DNA of 64,000 bases from Psychrilyobacter piezotolerans (lineage in GTDB: Bacteria > Fusobacteriota > Fusobacteriia > Fusobacteriales > Fusobacteriaceae): assembly GCF_003391055.1 (NCBI RefSeq), contig NZ_QUAJ01000006.1:62001-126000 (forward strand), read 5' to 3'. Of this stretch, positions 14,469-32,915 are shown piece by piece. Numbering within the stretch: the first letter of the stretch is position 1; every line of letters starts with the position of its first letter. The notes beneath the pieces are model-generated. The model did no database searches. It saw only the letters and a program-made list of their open reading frames with translations, and was not told the DNA's origin. A program made the translations under genes and the position numbers.

Positions 14469-16142
14469 TTATTTTATCATAGTAAAGGTAAATAAAGTCC
14501 CCTTTTTATTTGATTTGACATCTATATCCCCGCCGCATAGATGAACTAATTCATAAACTATAGATAAGCCCAAACCTGTGCCGGCTACATTGCTGGTCCT
14601 TGCCTTATCTACCCTATAAAATCTGTCGAATATCTTATAGGTATCGGATTTATTCATCCCGATTCCGTTATCCTTTACAGAAATTTTATATTTATCAAAT
14701 TTTTCTTCCATGGTAATTTTTATTCTAGGAGTATTAACATTGTAAATAATAGCATTCTCAATAAGATTTTTTAAAATCATGGTAGTTTTTTCAAAATCTA
14801 TCCTAATGTAGTCGGATTGCAGATCCAGCTTGTAGGATAGATCAACTTTTTTTAATTCAATTTGATTTTCAAGGGATCTATTGATCTCATCTATGAGAAG
14901 GTTCACATGAATAGGAGCTAAATTTACGACTTTACTGCTCTCTATCTTGGATAAGTTTAAAAAATCCATTAAAATATTATCCAGTTTTAGTGCATTTCTC
15001 TCTATGGTATTAATAAACTTATCTCTTTTATGGGAATCCTCCTCCTCTCGGAGTGCAACTAAATATCCCGTAATATTAGTTAGAGGAGTTTTTAATTCAT
15101 GTCCTACATTGGTAATAAAATTCTTTTGTATTTCCAATGTTTCCCTATCTCTAGTGATATCTTTTATGGTAAAAAGGTACTCTTCCCGGGATTTCATATA
15201 TTTTCCCCTGAGCAGTATATATTTTTGAATATCCTCTAAATAGACTTCAGAGATATTATTTTCTTTTTTTGAGATCAACCGGTCTATAAATTTAATAATT
15301 TCGGGATATTTGATGTCTTTTTTATAATTTTTAATATCTTCCTTTATATAGATAAAATTAATGGCATCATTTTTTAATTTAATTTTTTTTTCGGAATCGA
15401 CTAAGATGATTCCCATATCTACAGATGAGATAATATTATTTAATTTAACTTTTTCTAACTTTAATTTTTCTATATTTTTAAGGTTGTTATCCTGCCATTC
15501 CTTAATAACTTCCCAAAATTTAAACAGCCACCTATCATCTTTTGAGACCACTTCTTTGATCTCATTGCCGTCTTCTAACATCTTTTTTATTTGGTCGATC
15601 CTTTCAAAGAGATAGCGCTTTAAATAAAATCTATAACTTATAAGTGCAAAGAGATTTAAAAGTGAGAATAAGATAATATGTATATAAGTGCTGAGTTTTA
15701 CGTGTCTAAGAGCATTATTAGATATAACAGAAACACGAATAATTTGAGATGGATTTAATTTAAGAGCGAAATATATCATCTCTTTTTTAGTAGTTTCACT
15801 CTTTCGTGTGGATATGCCTTCGTTATTTTTTAGTGCACTTAAAATTTCAGGCCGATTATGGTGATTTTCCATAGAGTCGATAGACTTCTCTTCCATACTA
15901 TCAAATAAAACTTCTCCATCTAAACCTATGATAGTAAATCTTTTTTGTGTTTTTTTAAAGAGGTCACCATAATTTCCAGATGGATTTTGTAAAATAATAT
16001 TTTTGATTAAATAAGCATCATTTCTAAGGGAATTTTCCACATTTTTAATGCTGAGTTCCGATAATTTATCGGTATTCCATCTTACATAAAGGACCTCTAT
16101 TAGGAGGATAAAAATTATTATTATAAAATCTTTTCTTCTAAT
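14469..16142 (-). CDS. PhoR-type sensor histidine kinase, probable AUU start
   Basis: Membrane sensor kinase paired with the response regulator just upstream. The HisKA/HATPase core is complete: FITNVGHELKTPLTNI (H-box), NLIENAIIYN (N-box), KDNGIGM (G1), IFDRFYRVD (F-box) and GTGLGLSIV (G2). A second membrane helix near IHIILFSLLNLFALISYRFYL follows an extracytoplasmic loop. The first ordinary start codon in frame is a GTG at 16040, which would omit helix 1. In frame upstream lies RRKDFIIIIFILLIEVLYVRW, a good first helix, and the only plausible start before it is ATT at 16140-16142, about nine bases after a GGGGG ribosome-site-like run inside the regulator gene. I therefore annotate from the ATT. 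A sequence error is the alternative. Confidence 0.8.
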   Translation of the reverse strand: MRRKDFIIIIFILLIEVLYVRWNTDKLSELSIKNVENSLRNDAYLIKNIILQNPSGNYGDLFKKTQKRFTIIGLDGEVLFDSMEEKSIDSMENHHNRPEILSALKNNEGISTRKSETTKKEMIYFALKLNPSQIIRVSVISNNALRHVKLSTYIHIILFSLLNLFALISYRFYLKRYLFERIDQIKKMLEDGNEIKEVVSKDDRWLFKFWEVIKEWQDNNLKNIEKLKLEKVKLNNIISSVDMGIILVDSEKKIKLKNDAINFIYIKEDIKNYKKDIKYPEIIKFIDRLISKKENNISEVYLEDIQKYILLRGKYMKSREEYLFTIKDITRDRETLEIQKNFITNVGHELKTPLTNITGYLVALREEEDSHKRDKFINTIERNALKLDNILMDFLNLSKIESSKVVNLAPIHVNLLIDEINRSLENQIELKKVDLSYKLDLQSDYIRIDFEKTTMILKNLIENAIIYNVNTPRIKITMEEKFDKYKISVKDNGIGMNKSDTYKIFDRFYRVDKARTSNVAGTGLGLSIVYELVHLCGGDIDVKSNKKGTLFTFTMIK

Positions 16143-16801
16143 TTGTACCCAACCCCCTTGATCGTTTTAATATCTTTTGAGATACTCTTCACCTTATCTC
16201 TGATTTTTGAAATATACATATCTACAGTACGATCACCTGTATAATAGTTACTCTGCCATACCTTGTCTAAGATCTTATCCCGGGTTAATACTAATCCCTT
16301 ATTTTTTATAAGAAGAAGTAAAAGGTCATATTCTTTTTTAGACATAGGAATTTCATTTTGATCTTCTAAAATCAAGTGTTTATCGGTGTCTATAGTTATA
16401 TTTTTAAACATATATTTCTTGGTGCTGATTTTAGTTTCACGGTTTAAAAGCTTTTTTACCCGTAAAACCAACTCTCTGGGGTCAAATGGTTTTTTCATAT
16501 AATCATCTGCTCCTACCTCGAGACCTGATAATACATCCTCTATATCAGTTTTGGCTGTAAGCATGATTATCTTGGGGTTACCATATTTTTCTTCTGATTT
16601 TTTTATCATTTGAGCCAGACTCTTTCCGTCTAAATTAGGAAGCATAAGATCCAATATAATAATATGAGGATGATAAGTTTTAGCTAACTTTAATCCTGTC
16701 ATCCCGTCACCGGCTTCAAGGACTTCATATCCCTCTTTCTCCATAAAAAAACTAATTAATTCTCTGATATCTATGTCATCTTCTACAATTAATACTTTCA
16801 A
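16121..16801 (-). CDS. OmpR/PhoB-family response regulator
   Basis: A 226-residue regulator. The receiver domain has the acidic pair VEDDIDI near 7-9, the phosphorylated Asp in IIILDLMLPNLDG near residue 52, T/S in IIMLTAK and Lys in DDYMKKPF. The C-terminal winged helix has MSKKEYDLLLLLIKNKG, DRTVDMYISKIRDKV and GVGYKLE. It is encoded directly upstream of and overlapping the kinase, so the two form one unit. Targets are unknown; the resemblance to PhoB is by architecture only. An iteron-like 18-mer (16816-16833) lies 15 bases upstream of the start codon. Confidence 0.92.
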   Translation of the reverse strand: MKVLIVEDDIDIRELISFFMEKEGYEVLEAGDGMTGLKLAKTYHPHIIILDLMLPNLDGKSLAQMIKKSEEKYGNPKIIMLTAKTDIEDVLSGLEVGADDYMKKPFDPRELVLRVKKLLNRETKISTKKYMFKNITIDTDKHLILEDQNEIPMSKKEYDLLLLLIKNKGLVLTRDKILDKVWQSNYYTGDRTVDMYISKIRDKVKSISKDIKTIKGVGYKLEEKIL

Positions 16802-16815
16802 TTAATAACCACCTC

Positions 16816-16833
16816 ATCCCTTATTATTTATAA
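16816..16833 (+). repeat. Iteron-like 18-mer upstream of the response regulator
   Basis: ATCCCTTATTATTTATAA is identical to the origin copy at 10792-10809. It lies immediately before the response-regulator start. Confidence 0.7.
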
Positions 16834-16944
16834 AATAATATTTTATAACTTAGAATACAATGTTTCTTACTCTATTTCAAACTTTTTCTTATTTGTTTAC
16901 ATTAGATTGACATATAGGACAGATAAAAAGGGGTAGATAATAAT

Positions 16945-16996
16945 TTATATTTTATAAGTGATGATAACTTTTTATATAATCACTTATAAGGCATAA
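16945..16996. repeat. Inverted pair of iteron-like motifs
   Basis: ATCACTTATAAAATATAA on the minus strand (16962-16945) and ATCACTTATAAGGCATAA on the plus strand (16979-16996) form a dyad in the gap upstream of the two-component genes. Confidence 0.5.
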
Positions 16997-17010
16997 TTTT
17001 TTACAACATA

Positions 17011-17044
17011 AAAAAAGGAAAAGCAGAGAAATTTTTCTCTGCTT
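17011..17044 (-). terminator. Terminator of the hydroxyacid dehydrogenase gene
   Basis: AAGCAGAGAAA / TTTCTCTGCTT hairpin followed on the minus strand by a T-rich run. Confidence 0.75.
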
Positions 17045-17085
17045 CTATAAATTCATATATTTTCATAAGTCCATTTTTTTAAATT

Positions 17086-18108
17086 TTAATTCACAGAATT
17101 ACCTGCATCTCCTGTAGAAGAAAATTCCAGTAAATTTTTCAGGGAAACTTCTACCATATCCGATACAGCCTGATGTGTAAAGAAGGCCTGATGGGGAGTT
17201 ATCTGAACATTGGGCATATTCTTTAAAATCACCAAACTATCGTTATCAATCTGCCTCCTGGAACAATCTCTAAATATAATTCCATCCTCTCCCTCCAGAA
17301 CATCTAGAGCCGCTCCTCCGACTTTTCCTGATTTTAATCCTGCCACAAGATCTTTAGTATGAATAAGTTCTCCCCTGGCAGTATTAATTATCAATACTCC
17401 GTCTTTTGCAGAAGATAAAAACTTTGAATCGATCATATGCCTGTTTTCCCCGGTCATTGGAATATGCAGGGTTATTATATCCGACCGTTTTTTTAATTCC
17501 TCTAAACTAACATATTCTATATTCTCTAAATGAGAAGGAAAAGGGTCGTAGGCAATAACCTTACATCCAAAACCACTCAGACATTTAATCACTGTTTTAC
17601 CGATCTTACCTGTTCCGATCACACCTATAATTTGATTTTGCAATTCTCTTCCCTTTAGACCCTTCAGAGAAAAATCGTTGATTCCTACCTTTTTTATCGC
17701 AAGAGGAAGATATCTGAGCAAGTTCATCATAGACATCACTGTGAACTCAGCAACGGAATAGGGAGAATAGGAAGAATTACTTACTTTAATTTTAAGTTTT
17801 GTAGCTATATCTAAATCTACGTTATCGTAACCTATACTTCTGCTGGCAATAAATTTAATTCCATTTTTTTTAAGAACTTCCAGATTTTCTTTTCCTAAAT
17901 CACAGCTTCCTACAAAAGAAAGGTATTCGTACCCTAAAGATTCATCTAGATTTGAGCTGGACACTCCTTTTTTTACGATTTTTAACTCTATGTTATATAA
18001 ATCAGCAAATCTATTAAAAGCTTCTAATTCGTCCTCCCTCACACTGTAAGCTACTACTTTTATTTTATCTAAAGTATTTAATTCTTTAAAATTTAATATT
18101 TTTTCCAA
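17086..18108 (-). CDS. D-2-hydroxyacid dehydrogenase (D-lactate dehydrogenase-like)
   Basis: A 340-residue NAD-dependent dehydrogenase of the D-isomer family, probably reducing pyruvate to D-lactate. Visible are the catalytic Arg region FIASRSIGYDNVDLD, the Rossmann motif GVIGTGKIGKTVI, the acidic YDPFPS strand, LHIPMTGENRHMI, NTARGELI, and the catalytic His in ITPHQAFFT. The active-site Glu should lie in the GAALDVLEGEDG segment. Length and the YDPFPS and TPHQAF forms point to the LdhA/VanH branch. It lies directly downstream of ilvC but a terminator intervenes, so it is probably a separate unit. Confidence 0.85.
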   Translation of the reverse strand: MEKILNFKELNTLDKIKVVAYSVREDELEAFNRFADLYNIELKIVKKGVSSSNLDESLGYEYLSFVGSCDLGKENLEVLKKNGIKFIASRSIGYDNVDLDIATKLKIKVSNSSYSPYSVAEFTVMSMMNLLRYLPLAIKKVGINDFSLKGLKGRELQNQIIGVIGTGKIGKTVIKCLSGFGCKVIAYDPFPSHLENIEYVSLEELKKRSDIITLHIPMTGENRHMIDSKFLSSAKDGVLIINTARGELIHTKDLVAGLKSGKVGGAALDVLEGEDGIIFRDCSRRQIDNDSLVILKNMPNVQITPHQAFFTHQAVSDMVEVSLKNLLEFSSTGDAGNSVN

Positions 18109-18329: not shown

Positions 18330-19307
18330 TTACATATGATTTTTGGCAGATCCTTTAAAGACCATCTGTCTCATCTTTGATCCAACTTCTTCGATTTTAG
18401 AATCGGAATATTTAGATCTTTCACCTTTCATAAATTTATATCCAGTTTCTGTCTCATCTATAAATTCCTTTGCAAACTGACCATTTTGAATATCTCCTAA
18501 AACCTGCTTCATAGTTTCACGGGTTTTATCTGTAATAATCTTCTTTCCGGTAACATAATCACCATATTCAGCAGTATTTGATATAGAATCTCTCATCTTG
18601 GCAAATCCTTTTTCATATACCATGTCGATGATTAATTTCATCTCATGTACACATTCAAAATATGCCACTTCAGGGTTGTATCCGGCTTCTACCAGGGTAT
18701 CGAATCCGGCCTGCATAAGTTCAGTAACTCCTCCGCAGAGTACAGCCTGCTCCCCAAATAGATCTGTTTCGGTTTCCTCTTTAAAGGTAGTTTCAATGAT
18801 ACCGACCTTTCTTCCTACCCCGTTAGCCCATGCATCAGCAACCTCTTTGGTATCTCCGCTGATATCCTGATATACCGCTGTTAAACAGGGAACTCCGTGT
18901 CCTTTTTCAAATATTTCTCTGACCATATGCCCGGGTCCTTTAGGAGCTACCATAAATACATTAACTTTCCCAGCGGGAACGATTTTTTTATAATGAATAT
19001 TAAATCCATGGGCAAATCCTAAATATGCTCCTTCTTTTAAATTGTCCTTTACATGGTTTTCATATACAGCAGGCTGGGCTTCATCTGGAGTTAAAAACAT
19101 AACTACATCGGCATCTTTTACAGCCTCTGATATTTTTTTTACCTTCACTCCTGCTTTTTCTGCCTCTTCCCAAGACTTAGATCCCTCCCTTAACCCCACA
19201 GTCAGGTCCATTCCCAGATCTTTTAAGTTAAGTGTATGTGCATGCCCCTGGCTTCCATATCCTATTACGGTTAATTTTTTTCCCTCTAAAACTTTTAATT
19301 CTGTCAT
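18330..19307 (-). CDS. ilvC: Ketol-acid reductoisomerase
   Basis: A 325-residue class I enzyme that isomerises and reduces acetolactate or acetohydroxybutyrate with NADPH in valine and isoleucine synthesis. The NADPH site is VIGYGSQGHAHTLNLKDLG (residues 14-32). VAPKGPGHMVR, the metal-binding DLFGEQAVLCGG and the C-terminal YFECVHEMKLIIDMVYEKG are standard. The N-terminus is about ten residues shorter than in many homologues (no VYYD-type start). The start at 19307 has an AGGAGGAGC site. It is the last gene of the ilv operon. Confidence 0.95.
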   Translation of the reverse strand: MTELKVLEGKKLTVIGYGSQGHAHTLNLKDLGMDLTVGLREGSKSWEEAEKAGVKVKKISEAVKDADVVMFLTPDEAQPAVYENHVKDNLKEGAYLGFAHGFNIHYKKIVPAGKVNVFMVAPKGPGHMVREIFEKGHGVPCLTAVYQDISGDTKEVADAWANGVGRKVGIIETTFKEETETDLFGEQAVLCGGVTELMQAGFDTLVEAGYNPEVAYFECVHEMKLIIDMVYEKGFAKMRDSISNTAEYGDYVTGKKIITDKTRETMKQVLGDIQNGQFAKEFIDETETGYKFMKGERSKYSDSKIEEVGSKMRQMVFKGSAKNHM

Positions 19308-19334: not shown

Positions 19335-19820
19335 TTATTGTTTTTCTCCCCTGTGCATAGCGGTTATTCCCGTTCTTGAGATCTCTAAAACCTCAAATTT
19401 CTGGACCAGCCTTAAAAAACCGTCGATTTTATCTAAATCTCCAATTAACTCTATAATCAATGATTCGTGGGAAATATCGATGATTTTCCCTTTAAATATC
19501 TCAGCAACTTCAATAAGTTCAGTACGGGTTTTAAAGTCGGTTTTTATTTTGACTAAAATCAGCTCTCTTTTGATGGTTCTTTCCTTGTCAAAAATCTGTA
19601 CTTCCACTACATCCACAAGTTTTGCAACCTGTTTTTTAATTTGTTCTATAATTTTTTTATTTCCTATAACAGAGATAGTCATTCTGAAAAAACCATCTCT
19701 TTCACTGACTCCAGAAGTAATTCCATTGATATTAAAACCTCTTTTAGAAAATAATCCAGAAATTTTAGACAATACCCCTGGAATGTCTTTCATAATAACT
19801 AAAACTTGGTATTCTCTCAT
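19335..19820 (-). CDS. ilvN: Acetolactate synthase regulatory subunit
   Basis: A 161-residue small subunit with an N-terminal ACT domain (residues about 3-75, beginning [30 protein letters not shown]) and the ALS_ss C-terminal domain ([12 protein letters not shown]...). It binds valine and feedback-controls the large subunit. The start codon overlaps the ilvB stop by four bases, giving coupled translation and a matched ratio of subunits. Confidence 0.93.
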
Positions 19821-21526
19821 CTGTCCTCCTTTGATAAAATCATCTCATGTACTGATTTCCCAGGTGGTATCATAGGAAAAATATTTTCTTCCCTTGTAAC
19901 AACACAGTCTATCAATACCGGTTTGTTGACTTCAAATGCTTTTTTTAGAAGATCGTCCAGGAGGGGGGTATTCTCTGCCCTATATGAATCGATGCTGTAG
20001 GCTTTTCCTAAAGTTACAAAATCAGGATTCATTTCCAGATCAACAAAGGAATATCTTTTGTCATGAAACATCTCCTGCCACTGTCTGACCATCCCAAGGA
20101 AAGAATTATTTACAATGATGATCTTAATATCTAAATTATATTGTGAGATGGTCATAAGTTCCTGGGAGTTCATCTGAAATCCCCCATCTCCTACAATGGC
20201 AACAACCTCCCTGTCTGGATTAGCAAGTTTAGCTCCTATGGCAGCTGGTAATCCAAATCCCATGGTTCCTGCCCCTCCAGAAGTTACAATACTATCAGGT
20301 CTGTTAAATTCATAATACTGGGCTGTCCACATCTGATGCTGCCCGACATCTGTACAGACGATAGCGTTACCTTTAGTTACCTGGCTTATTTTGGAGATCA
20401 GATCCTGGGGACTGATTTTACCTGCAGAAAATTCTCTGGAAAGGGGAAATTTATTTTTCAACTCTAAAATCCTGTCGATCCATTGAGGGTGTTGTTTTTC
20501 ATAGGGAGATTCTAAAAGTTTTTTTAAAATACAATTTAAATCTCCAACAATATGCAGATCTGCTTCCTTTATCTTGTTTATTTCAGCTTCATCGATGTCT
20601 ATATGTATAATTTTTGCATTTTTACAAAATCTTTGGACATCTCCAGTGACTCTGTCATCGAATCTCATCCCCAGAGCTATCACCAGATCAGCTTCATCTA
20701 CAGCATAGTTGGCATATGGTGTACCATGCATTCCCAGCATATGAAGGTTATGAATATCATGGTGGGGGAGGGTTCCTAATCCCAAAAGGGTAGATGTCAT
20801 GGGAATATCAAATTTTTTAATAACTTTTTTTAATGTTTCCTGGGCTTTTGATTTAACAATACCATTTCCTGAAAGGATAATAGGTCTTTTGCTCTCTCTG
20901 ATCATATCTGTCATAAGTTCTATGGATTTAGTCTCCGGACTCTCATATAAGTGATGGTATGTAGAAGTCGGGTTATTTTCAGCCCTGTAAAGTTGTTCAA
21001 ACTTTTCATAGGAGATCTCCTCCAACTGAATATTTTTTGGAATATCCACAAGGACTGGTCCGGGTCTTCCTATATTTGTAAGGTAGATAGCTTCCTTTAA
21101 GATCCTAGGCAGATCTTCAATGGTTCTCACAAGATAACTATGCTTAGTTATAGGAAGAGAAATTCCTGTAATATCAGATTCTTGAAAAGCATCACTGCCT
21201 AAATTTGTACTTGGAACCTGTCCTGTAATTACCAGCAGGGGAGTCGAATCCATATAAGCAGTCATTATTCCGGTAACTGTATTGGTAGCACCAGGTCCCG
21301 AAGTAGCTATTGAAACTCCTGTTTTTCTACTGACTCTGGCATATCCGTCTGCTGCATGGGTAGCACCCTGCTCATGCCTTGTAAAAATATGTTTTATCTT
21401 ATCTTTGTAATCGTAGAGAGCATCATAGAGAGGTATTACTGCTCCACCAGGATAACCAAAGACTGTATTTAAATCATGTCTATATAAAATTTCTAAAATT
21501 ATTCTAGCTCCATTAATATTTTTCAT
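19817..21526 (-). CDS. ilvB: Acetolactate synthase catalytic subunit
   Basis: A 569-residue thiamine-diphosphate enzyme catalysing the first common step of valine and leucine synthesis and the second step of isoleucine synthesis. The N-terminal catalytic Glu lies in [29 protein letters not shown], the FAD-region [14 protein letters not shown] and the ThDP/Mg motif [16 protein letters not shown]...IIIVNN are all present. Length is normal. It is preceded by the 250-base gap holding repeat copy C, which separates it from ilvD. Confidence 0.95.
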
Positions 21527-21773: not shown

Positions 21774-23438
21774 TTAATAATTTTTTAAAAGGACAGCTCC
21801 CTTACTGGCTGAACTGACAACCTGCTGGTATCTTCTGAGGTAGCTGCTTTCTACCTGTTTTACCAGGGGCTTAAAGGTGGCTTTTCTTTTTTCTATCTCA
21901 CTGTCACTGACTTTTAAAGAGATAGATCTATTGGGAATATCGATCTCTATAAGATCTCCCTCTTTTACAAGACCGATAAGTCCGCCGGTGGCTGCTTCTG
22001 GAGATATATGACCAATTGCTGCTCCACGACTGGCTCCGGAAAATCTGCCGTCTGTGATAAGAGCACAATATTTATCCAGTCCCATTCCAGCTAACGTGGC
22101 AGTAGGAGCTAACATCTCCCTCATCCCCGGTCCTCCCTTTGGACCTTCATATCTTATGACAATTACATCGCCTTTTTTTATCTGACCTCCTAAGATAGCT
22201 TTTACCGAGTCCTCTTCGTTTTCAAAGACTCTGGCAGGTCCAGAATGTTTAGTCATTGTTTTATCTACTGCCCCGGCTTTAACAATGGCTCCATCTGCCG
22301 CTAAATTCCCGTATAGAGTGGCTAATCCGCCATTTTTATAATAGGCATTTTCAAAACTTCGAATGACATCGTTGTCTAATACCCTGCTCATCTTAGCAAC
22401 TTCCAGCTGGGGTTTTAACATTACAGTAGGAGCTTCCTTCAAACAGTTATTTTCATGTAAAACATTCATAACTGCTGAAACTCCTCCTGCCATCTGCAGG
22501 TCCTCTATAAAATGTTCCCCTGAGGGAGATAATTTACATATCTGTAAAACTTCCTTTGAAACATCATCAAATTCTTTTAAAGTTAGTTCTATTCCACATT
22601 CATTGGCAATAGCAGGAAGGTGTAAACTTGAGTTTGTAGACCCCCCCAATGCCATATCAACAGCTATAGCGTTATAAAAAGCATCCTTTGTCATGATATC
22701 TTTAGGTTTTAAATCTGCTTCTAATAATTTTAAAACCTGCATCCCGGCAGTTTTGGCCAGTCTGATTCTTTCTGAAAATACAGCCGGGATGGTTCCGTTA
22801 CCAGATAACGCCATTCCAAGAGCTTCTGTAAGACAATTCATGGTGTTAGCAGTATACATCCCGGAACAAGAACCACATGTTGGACAGGCGGCATTTTCAG
22901 CTTCTGCCAGGTCATCGCAGGTCATAGTCCCATTTTCATATCCACCGACATATTCAAAGACGTTGCTTAAGCCGATTTTTTTACCTTTAAATACACCGGC
23001 CAGCATAGGTCCTCCACTGATAAAAATAGATGGAATATTTAATCTTGCCGCCGCCATGAGCATTCCAGGGACCACTTTGTCACAGTTTGGAATGAATACC
23101 ATAGCATCAAAGGGCATTGCAGTAGCACTTATTTCGGCAGAGTCGGCTATGATTTCCCTGCTGGGAAGGGAAAAACTCATCCCATTATGGTTCATAGCCA
23201 GGCCGTCACAAACAGCAATGGTGCTGAACTCCAGAGGAACCCCGCCGGCTAATCTAACACCGGTTTTGACAGCATCGATAATTTTATCCAGATGCATATG
23301 TCCTGGAACTATTTCATTATAGGAACCGGCTATTCCTATAATTGGTCTTTTAATTTCCTCATCTATAAGCCCTAAAGCTTTTAAAAGAGATCTATGGGGA
23401 GCTCTCTGGCTCCCTTTTTTTAATTCATCACTTCTCAT
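21774..23438 (-). CDS. ilvD: Dihydroxy-acid dehydratase
   Basis: A 554-residue iron-sulphur dehydratase that makes the 2-oxoacid precursors of valine and isoleucine. The Cys ligands are in [12 protein letters not shown] and [19 protein letters not shown]. The [14 protein letters not shown] block, [14 protein letters not shown] and the C-terminal [20 protein letters not shown] are all diagnostic. Length is typical. It follows ilvE after a short gap. Confidence 0.95.
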
Positions 23439-23474: not shown

Positions 23475-24443
23475 CTATCTTGCATAAGTTGACCAAGAGT
23501 TATACTTGGGATTTTTCTCTTCGGTCATCTTTACATAAGTTAACCAAGAATTATACTTGGGATTTTTCCCTTCAGTCATCTCAAAGAAGGCTTTTTGTAT
23601 TTTCTCTGTAATGGGACCTCTTTTACCGCTTCCAATTTTAATCTTGTCAACAGTGGCTATTGGTGTGATCTCAGCAGCAGTTCCGGAAAAAAACATCTCG
23701 TCGGCCGTATATAGGGATTCCCTGGAAATTGTTTCTTCAACAACTTCATAACCCAGGTCACGGGCTATTGTAATTACCGAATCCCGGGTAATACCAATAA
23801 GGGCTGAGGATCCTGATTGGGGAGAATAGATCTTCCCACCCGAAACTAAAAATAAATTTTCTCCGCTCCCCTCACTGACATTTCCGGAATAGTCCAGGGC
23901 AATACCTTCATCATAGCCATTTTCAAGTGCCTCCATCTTGATAAGCTGGGAACTCAAGTAGTTTCCCCCGGCCTTGGCAGCTGTAGGCATTGTATTTGGT
24001 GCTAACCGTCTCCAGGAAGAGACACAGACGTCAACTCCTTTAGTTAAAGCTTCTTCCCCCAGATATGCTCCCCATTCCCAGGCGGCTATCATAGTTTCAA
24101 CCGGACAATTAGATGGATTTACTCCTAAAGATTCATATCCCCTGTATACAAGGGGTCTGATATAGGCAGTTTTGATACCATTGATCAGGATAGTATCGAA
24201 TATGGCTTGTTTTACCTCCTCTTTAGAATATGGGATCTCAGTTCTATATATTTTACAAGAGTTATATAATCTGTCGATATGTTCGTCTAACCTGAATACA
24301 GCTGTTCCTTCCTCTGTTTTATAAGCTCTGATCCCTTCAAAAAAGCTGGATCCATAATGCATTACATGGGATAAAACGTGAACCTTAGCATTGTCATGAT
24401 CGATCATCTCACCATTCATCCATATTTTTTTAGTATTTATCAT
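23475..24443 (-). CDS. ilvE: Branched-chain amino acid aminotransferase
   Basis: A 322-residue PLP class IV aminotransferase that makes the last step of valine, leucine and isoleucine synthesis. The PLP lysine is in [37 protein letters not shown] and [12 protein letters not shown] are typical. I prefer the ATG at 24443 ([11 protein letters not shown]) to the one at 24464, because AGGAGG lies six bases before it. The C-terminus is odd: [17 protein letters not shown] is followed at once by [17 protein letters not shown], an in-frame duplication of about 51 bases. It is the first structural gene after the attenuator. Confidence 0.93.
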
Positions 24444-24473
24444 CTCTATACCTCCTAAATTCATTATTTTTTT

Positions 24474-24507
24474 ATAAAAAAAGAAGCAGCTAATAATATT
24501 AGCTGCT
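24474..24507 (-). terminator. ilv attenuator terminator
   Basis: On the minus strand AGCAGCTAAT / ATTAGCTGCT with a 3-base loop, then a T-rich run of seven or more. It lies between the isoleucine-rich leader and ilvE. Confidence 0.85.
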
Positions 24508-24555
24508 CCTATACTACTTTCCCCAAATAATTAATCTTGTTAAAAAACTATTGTT

Positions 24556-24666
24556 TTAAAAAAAATTATCGGAATTTGTACTATAAAGATCACAACTAAT
24601 ATTATTGATTATGGTTATAATTATTATTATTATTATAGCTATAGAAATATTAATTATTGATCTCAT
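24556..24666 (-). CDS. Isoleucine-rich leader peptide of the ilv operon
   Basis: A 36-codon reading frame with a perfect GGAGG site seven bases before its ATG. Fourteen of its residues are isoleucine, including a run of seven (codons ATA x5, ATT, ATA), in the stretch MRSIINISIAI... It ends about 50 bases before the terminator hairpin. This is the layout of classical transcription attenuation: when charged isoleucine tRNA is scarce, ribosomes stall on the Ile codons and the downstream terminator does not form. Valine and leucine are barely represented (one Leu, no Val), so isoleucine would be the main signal. The pairing that would form the antiterminator was not worked out. Confidence 0.85.
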   Translation of the reverse strand: MRSIINISIAIIIIIIITIINNISCDLYSTNSDNFF

Positions 24667-24708
24667 AGTTTTACCTCCGTTTTTTTGTTTGTTTTTTTTA
24701 TTGATACA

Positions 24709-24737
24709 ACAATAACATTTTTACGTGACGCTGTCAA
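24709..24737 (-). promoter_or_regulatory. Promoter of the ilv operon with a palindrome in its spacer
   Basis: Minus strand TTGACA (24737-24732), 17-base spacer, TATTGT (24714-24709). The spacer begins with GCGTCACGT, part of the AGCGTCACGT dyad at 24723-24732, so a protein binding there would block or alter initiation. Confidence 0.7.
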
Positions 24738-26909: not shown

Positions 26910-27047
26910 AAAAAAAAAGACCGTAGTCCACCCTCTACAAAAACTATGTGTGAAGAGTATAGACTCCTGCCTTTACTTTTCACCCATAGAGGTTAATTTT
27001 AGGTTAACCGTAGAGACACCAGACCATATTTCTAGCTTATATGAGTT
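26910..27047 (-). promoter_or_regulatory. Guanine (purine) riboswitch upstream of guaB
   Basis: Read on the minus strand: P1 strand ACTCAT (27046-27041), L2 with ATATGG, J2/3 GTGTCTCTAC, P3 GGTTAA / TTAACC with loop CCTAAAA, and J3/1 TCTATGGGTG whose ATGGGT closes P1. These match the purine aptamer consensus, and the specificity base before TATGG is C, as in guanine sensors. Downstream, GTAGAGGGTGGACTACGGTC precedes a T9 run (to about 26910), an imperfect terminator stem. Expected effect: guanine excess stops guaB transcription. Confidence 0.85.
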
Positions 27048-27074
27048 ATTGATTATTGTTATAAATTTCAATAA

Positions 27075-32727: not shown

Positions 32728-32749
32728 TCTTTAAATTTATTATTAATAT

Positions 32750-32915
32750 AACTCATATAAATCGGAAATAGGGTCCGATGTATCTACGACTAACCTTAAA
32801 TTAGTATCTATGAGTGAATTCTAACCCAAAGTCTAGGCTCTAAAAAGTATAGACTCCATTTGGATAGGTTCACTGTAGATACAGAGAGCTTATTTATATG
32901 GAGTTTTTTTTATTA
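32750..32915 (+). promoter_or_regulatory. Guanine (purine) riboswitch upstream of guaA
   Basis: P1 ACTCAT (32751-32756) pairs with ATGAGT (32810-32815). P2 is TCGG / CCGA, J2/3 is TGTATCTAC, P3 is ACTAA / TTAGT with loop CCTTAAA, and J3/1 TCTATGAGTG has the C expected of guanine sensors. Downstream, ACTCCAT (about 32853) can pair with ATGGAGT (about 32898) followed by T8, giving a terminator. It is the plus-strand counterpart of the guaB riboswitch. Confidence 0.85.

Follow-up and report, generated by a model that had tools for sequence, protein, structure and literature searches.

The leaders of the ilvGMEDA and ilvBN operons of Escherichia coli and Salmonella mix Ile, Val and Leu codons. 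Both operons appear among the attenuators listed in PMC1183508. In Listeria monocytogenes, the Rli60 leader was tested by mutation, and mutants of its start codon and ribosome-binding site always terminated transcription (PMC5864092). In Streptomyces coelicolor, codon changes in the ilvB leader were reported to be without effect (PMC1262725).

The locus described here lies in a 64,000-nucleotide stretch of DNA from Psychrilyobacter piezotolerans (hereafter the window) and very probably represents a classical ribosome-mediated transcription attenuator, which would gauge charged isoleucine tRNA and control ilvEDBNC. It would be a known class of switch in a phylum where such elements seem to have been little described. 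No leader-peptide attenuator of Fusobacteriota was described in the literature searched, which left most subscription papers outside, and Lopatovskaya et al. (2010) or Vitreschak et al. (2004) could contain one. Likewise, Rfam gave no description of a Fusobacteriota attenuation leader for the window locus or for two related loci, L056 and L048.

Organization of the leader locus and its operon

The ilvE-D-B-N-C genes are headed, between 24737 and approximately 24476 of the minus strand, by a sigma-70 type promoter, a GGAGG site, a leader ORF and an intrinsic terminator (Table 1). An earlier note, made from the sequence alone, had placed a promoter, the GGAGG site, a leader of 36 codons, 14 of them for Ile (seven in a row), and a terminator in this order without naming a strand, and this reading was confirmed. 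The features of the attenuator class are thereby present: a short ORF with a ribosome-binding site between the promoter and the first gene, a run of codons for an amino acid that the operon makes (14/36 Ile), and an intrinsic terminator upstream of the first gene. The leader ORF (24666-24556) reads MRSIINISIAIIIIIIITIINNISCDLYSTNSDNFF, and its Ile codons comprise nine AUA, four AUU and one AUC, with the seven consecutive ones at codons 11-17. The near absence of Val and Leu codons, also claimed before, was borne out: the sole Leu is codon 27, beyond the control stretch, and there is no codon for Val, which is a product of the same ilv genes. A control region of the multivalent E. coli ilvGMEDA type, with Ile, Val and Leu codons together, was thus not found.

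The terminator consists of 13 pairs followed by the T run, and one such element was found against 0.1 per shuffle. Since 4.7 promoter-like matches are expected per shuffled region, the case for the promoter lies in its conservation, which is described below.

Table 1. Features of the leader locus and the downstream operon (window coordinates)
Feature	Position	Strand	Remarks
Promoter	24709..24737	-	TTGACA 24737-24732, 17 nt, TATTGT 24714-24709; TG ahead of the second hexamer
Shine-Dalgarno site GGAGG of the leader	24674..24678	-	Read from the sequence
Leader ORF, 36 codons + TAA, 14 Ile codons	24556..24666	-	ORF; relatives in four further genomes of the genus
Strand 1 (protector)	24646..24669	-	Pairs with 24603-24580 if no ribosome covers it; minimum-energy fold and no-ribosome state
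Strand 2 (leader codons 21-25)	24592..24606	-	Pairs with strand 3 as antiterminator; 15 pairs, G-U among them
Strand 3 (terminator 5' arm and loop, as paired with strand 2)	24492..24506	-	
Intrinsic terminator hairpin (strands 3 + 4)	24482..24510	-	Followed by a T run to ~24476
ilvE, branched-chain aminotransferase	23475..24464	-	Start probably ATG 24443 (AGGAGG at 24456-24451, by eye), not the first in-frame ATG 24464
ilvD, dihydroxy-acid dehydratase	21774..23438	-	
ilvB, acetolactate synthase large subunit	19817..21526	-	
ilvN, acetolactate synthase small subunit	19335..19820	-	
ilvC, ketol-acid reductoisomerase	18330..19307	-	

The five structural genes were named by NCBIfam models with scores over the curated cut-offs. 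The ilvA gene lies elsewhere in the genome, and no leader before it was visible to the leader-ORF filter described below. The region downstream of ilvC (window positions 14469-18108, minus strand) encodes a PhoB/PhoR-like two-component pair and a VanH-like D-lactate dehydrogenase family protein, the latter scoring below those cut-offs. The window also holds two purine riboswitches over gathering score, at 26967-27064 (-) and 32733-32830 (+).

Conservation in the genus

The leader peptide was found in five of 41 genomes, all five within the genus, and the three genomes of the genus lacking a match were 62-76% complete. In all five genomes where the site is present, leader and promoter are both kept, the latter with the same hexamers, 17-nt spacing and TG motif. 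Four of the leaders start with RSIINISI and are dominated by Ile; the fifth, from G005, carries ten Ile and eight Leu codons, with Leu mixed into the run. Therefore, the Ile-specific control proposed earlier describes the control codons of this genome, but an Ile-only leader is not a strict property of the genus. One relative (G003) presents an A-C mismatch in the terminator stem.

Predicted alternative pairing and its dependence on simulated ribosome position

The leader region folded more stably than its shuffles (z = -5.8). The alternative pairing that the earlier note had called for was found: strand 2 is able to form 15 pairs with strand 3, in the 5' arm of the terminator, and can also pair with strand 1. 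In stall simulations, a ribosome halted up to codon 19 freed strand 2 for the terminator arm, and strand 3 was sequestered with a probability of 0.85-0.96 for A-site positions at codons 1-19, 0.65 at codon 20, 0.44 at codon 21 and at most 0.27 from codon 22 on. Of the 14 Ile codons, 12 lie within codons 1-19; codon 20 is on the slope, and codon 23 falls outside. With no ribosome, strand 3 was sequestered with a computed probability of 0.19 and the terminator stem formed with one of 0.97, favouring the terminator in an untranslated leader. In these computations, which treat folding at equilibrium and not kinetically and take the edge of the ribosome as an assumption, the antiterminator excludes the terminator in a manner dependent on ribosome position. 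Shuffling of the sequence that separates the Ile block from the terminator abolished the switch, none of 60 shuffles reaching it. Covariation among the five genus sequences comprised a single two-sided change, from A-U to C-G; 97.3% of the cells were paired, and the covariation did not exceed that of shuffles, 105 of 500 of which did as well. Sequence and computation together established the parts of the element, its mutually exclusive pairings, their dependence on the simulated ribosome position, and the conservation.

In the proposed mechanism, RNA polymerase would start downstream of the promoter (24737-24709) and a ribosome would begin translating the leader. When Ile-tRNA is plentiful, the ribosome would cross the Ile block, allowing strands 1 and 2 to pair and strands 3 and 4 to pair, so that transcription would stop before ilvE. 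When Ile-tRNA is short, the ribosome would stall in the Ile block and strand 1 would stay covered, leaving strand 2 to take strand 3, which would prevent the formation of the terminator and let the operon be read. Without translation, strand 1 would hold strand 2 and transcription would stop. We infer that the leader is translated in the cell, that termination and antitermination occur there, and that isoleucine is the signal to which they respond.

Weighing of alternative explanations

The genome is AT-rich, ATA/ATT repeats occur elsewhere in it, and six consecutive Ile codons (ATH x6) are found at six separate places in its 3.36 Mb, from which it might be argued that the leader is a chance repeat that happens to be open beside an ordinary terminator. 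Against this, a filter for a Shine-Dalgarno-like site followed by an ORF of 10-70 aa in which at least 10 of 17 residues are alike returned a single match in the real window, the ilv leader with its terminator, and none in 200 dinucleotide shuffles. A Shine-Dalgarno-preceded short ORF accompanies just one of the six Ile runs, that of the ilv leader, and the frame, the promoter and the terminator are all kept within the genus. The order of the elements is not due to chance, and this explanation deserves practically no credence. Equally remote is a T-box or another ligand-binding leader. T-boxes do exist in the genus, ahead of an asnS-like gene, but no Rfam family reached gathering score at the leader locus, where the sole match up to E = 1 scored 18.6 bits and the cut-off is 55.8, and the T-box match of this genome sits on another contig. 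A T-box (RF00230) or riboswitch at the leader was thus rejected, since no covariance model matched the locus at gathering score. No T-box match fell at any of the 58 ilv loci of the phylum when match positions were compared. T-box-like matches below gathering score were seen in G005 (L099), followed by a gene that reads by eye like asparaginyl-tRNA synthetase, and in the genome analyzed here (C28:3246-3421). A 2008 survey listed no T-boxes for Fusobacteria/Thermotogae, represented there by two genomes (PMC2494555). It is also very unlikely, if slightly less so, that the leader senses an overall slowdown of translation, or acts by coupling or re-initiation into ilvE, instead of isoleucine-dependent termination. 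A stall anywhere in codons 1-19 gives the antiterminator, non-Ile codons included, yet Ile accounts for 12 of these 19 codons; direct re-initiation is improbable because the leader ends ~110 nt before ilvE, with the terminator in between.

A more specific possibility is that the leader senses AUA selectively, reading the charging of the minor tRNA-Ile(CAU), or its lysidine modification by TilS, and not the general isoleucine supply. The AUA majority reported earlier is real (9/14), TilS is present in the genome, and PMC1183508 treats the selective charging of isoacceptors as accepted. Among pooled representatives, Ile-type leaders have 47 AUA of 74 Ile codons (35.6 expected) and mixed leaders 24 of 78 (39.8 expected), a suggestive mild excess in the former and deficit in the latter, although these leaders are related to one another and their codons are further restricted by RNA pairing. 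The special reliance on AUA that the earlier note had drawn from this majority found no support in that form. Because AUA already makes up 41.5% of the 1368 Ile codons counted in window ORFs that are 200 aa or longer, the leader excess reaches only P = 0.074; five of the 14 codons are AUU or AUC, which also occur within the Ile block, and AUA stays near half in the four relatives (6/13, 6/12, 6/10 and 6/13), so that the AUA majority is not a conserved feature of the genus. The AUA use of the leader does not go beyond the base composition of this genome, the lysidine idea is a weak one, and a selective AUA sensor appears improbable. The tRNA genes found comprised one tRNA-Ile(GAU), three initiator-like CAU and two other CAU genes, numbers that are not firm because the genome is a draft; one of the two other CAU genes presumably encodes the lysidine tRNA.

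Leaders ahead of ilv operons across Fusobacteriota

The leaders of other Fusobacteriota, to which the earlier note had pointed as a check, proved to be widespread. Matches to ilvD occur in 60 of 98 genomes of the phylum, and among the 58 loci read (57 with ilvD, and L092 with ilvE only) leaders rich in branched-chain amino acid (BCAA) codons precede the ilv operon at 50. A Shine-Dalgarno-preceded BCAA-rich ORF followed by a terminator was found at 44 loci. In five others (L041, L045, L046, L050 and L053) the ORF is present and no terminator passed the filter, and in L092 the leader is present but a stem mismatch was rejected by the terminator filter. Of the remaining loci, L037 is cut by a contig end and seven have no leader. 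The leader sequences of other genera are different, with the same layout.

Strand-3 sequestration dropped past the BCAA block in 17 of 18 phylum leaders submitted to the stall simulation. The observed drop was reached by none of 60 shuffles for nine leaders and by one to three for seven; it was weak for a leu leader (L107, 6/60), and L083 failed, with 41 of 60 shuffles reaching it. A helix scan of 50 leaders is taken as description only, since it lacked a shuffle control of its own and the best helix often fell at or past the leader stop (six of seven g4 leaders, g5, g9, the g14 ilvA leader and L110). In many Leptotrichiaceae-type leaders, GCCUUAAAAGUU within the ORF stands against the complementary AACUUUUAAGGC at the terminator. 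The former encodes the peptide motif ALKV, found in L042, L043, L048, L055-L068 and others, and because of this complementarity the conserved motif is likely an RNA constraint mimicking a peptide motif. An Rfam scan of two such loci, L056 and L048, gave no match.

Leader specificity and operon content

In P. piezotolerans, leuA-C-D-B lies on another contig (L107, C3:145000-156500), preceded by a leader with a Leu run, MILTNILSINILLLLLLLLPLDC, and two successive terminator-like hairpins; a Leu-run leader and two such hairpins also accompany leuA-C-D-B in three relatives (L108-L110). A second ilvE-like gene follows leuB in this genome and in one relative (L109). In g14, a Leu-dominated leader heads a cluster in which ilvD and ilvB follow leuACDB, and a separate ilvA has a leader with an Ile run. 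At L070 and L076, in addition to the Ile-type leader before ilvD, the cluster contains another one, of mixed Ile/Leu/Val composition, ahead of ilvB-ilvN-leuA.

The Leu fraction of the leaders was 0.32-0.62 where leu genes are clustered (eight genera) and 0.09-0.18 where they are not (five genera), with g3 as an exception at 0.50 (one-sided Mann-Whitney p = 0.008, with group labels assigned by ourselves). By these labels g8 counts as having no leu genes, though two g8 loci have a second leader before ilvB-ilvN-leuA, and g17 as having them, though leuA is cut off in many stretches, leuC being on the same contig in most. The comparison omitted g21 and g7, and some loci with identical or almost identical leaders are absent from its peptide lists. 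We tentatively suggest, as a possibility rather below even chance, that BCAA synthesis in Fusobacteriota is run by a set of leader attenuators whose specificity was rewired along with the gene content of the operons. Leaders would be of Ile type where an ilv operon lacks leu genes, Leu-only for a separate leu operon, Ile for a separate ilvA and mixed for fused clusters. The choice of AUA, favoured in Ile-type leaders and avoided in mixed ones, might then tune which Ile tRNA is read.

Comparison with described attenuators

If the proposed mechanism is true, translation-coupled attenuation of amino acid operons would be extended to Fusobacteriota, and related leaders reading Ile, Leu or mixtures would offer a natural series for the effects of codon choice and run length on the attenuator response. 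The locus resembles the actinobacterial ilvB leaders, in which short ORFs with Ile, Val and Leu runs and terminators precede ilv operons, but those have mixed codons and an ORF overlapping the terminator (PMC1262725). It also resembles Rli60 of L. monocytogenes, a ribosome-mediated attenuator placed before ilvD; that leader has 13 residues enriched in BCAA codons, and CodY acts there too (PMC5864092). In the Staphylococcus aureus ilvD leader, as here, one BCAA dominates before an ilv operon with a terminator and an antiterminator; unlike here, that leader is Leu-rich with three Ile codons, the operon has leu genes, and the Ile signal enters through CodY (PMC5794164). With ilvGMEDA and ilvBN of E. 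coli and Salmonella, the locus shares a leader rich in a product amino acid, a terminator before the first structural gene and an alternative pairing that would be set by the ribosome, and it differs from them in its Ile-only leader and in its gene order, E-D-B-N-C.
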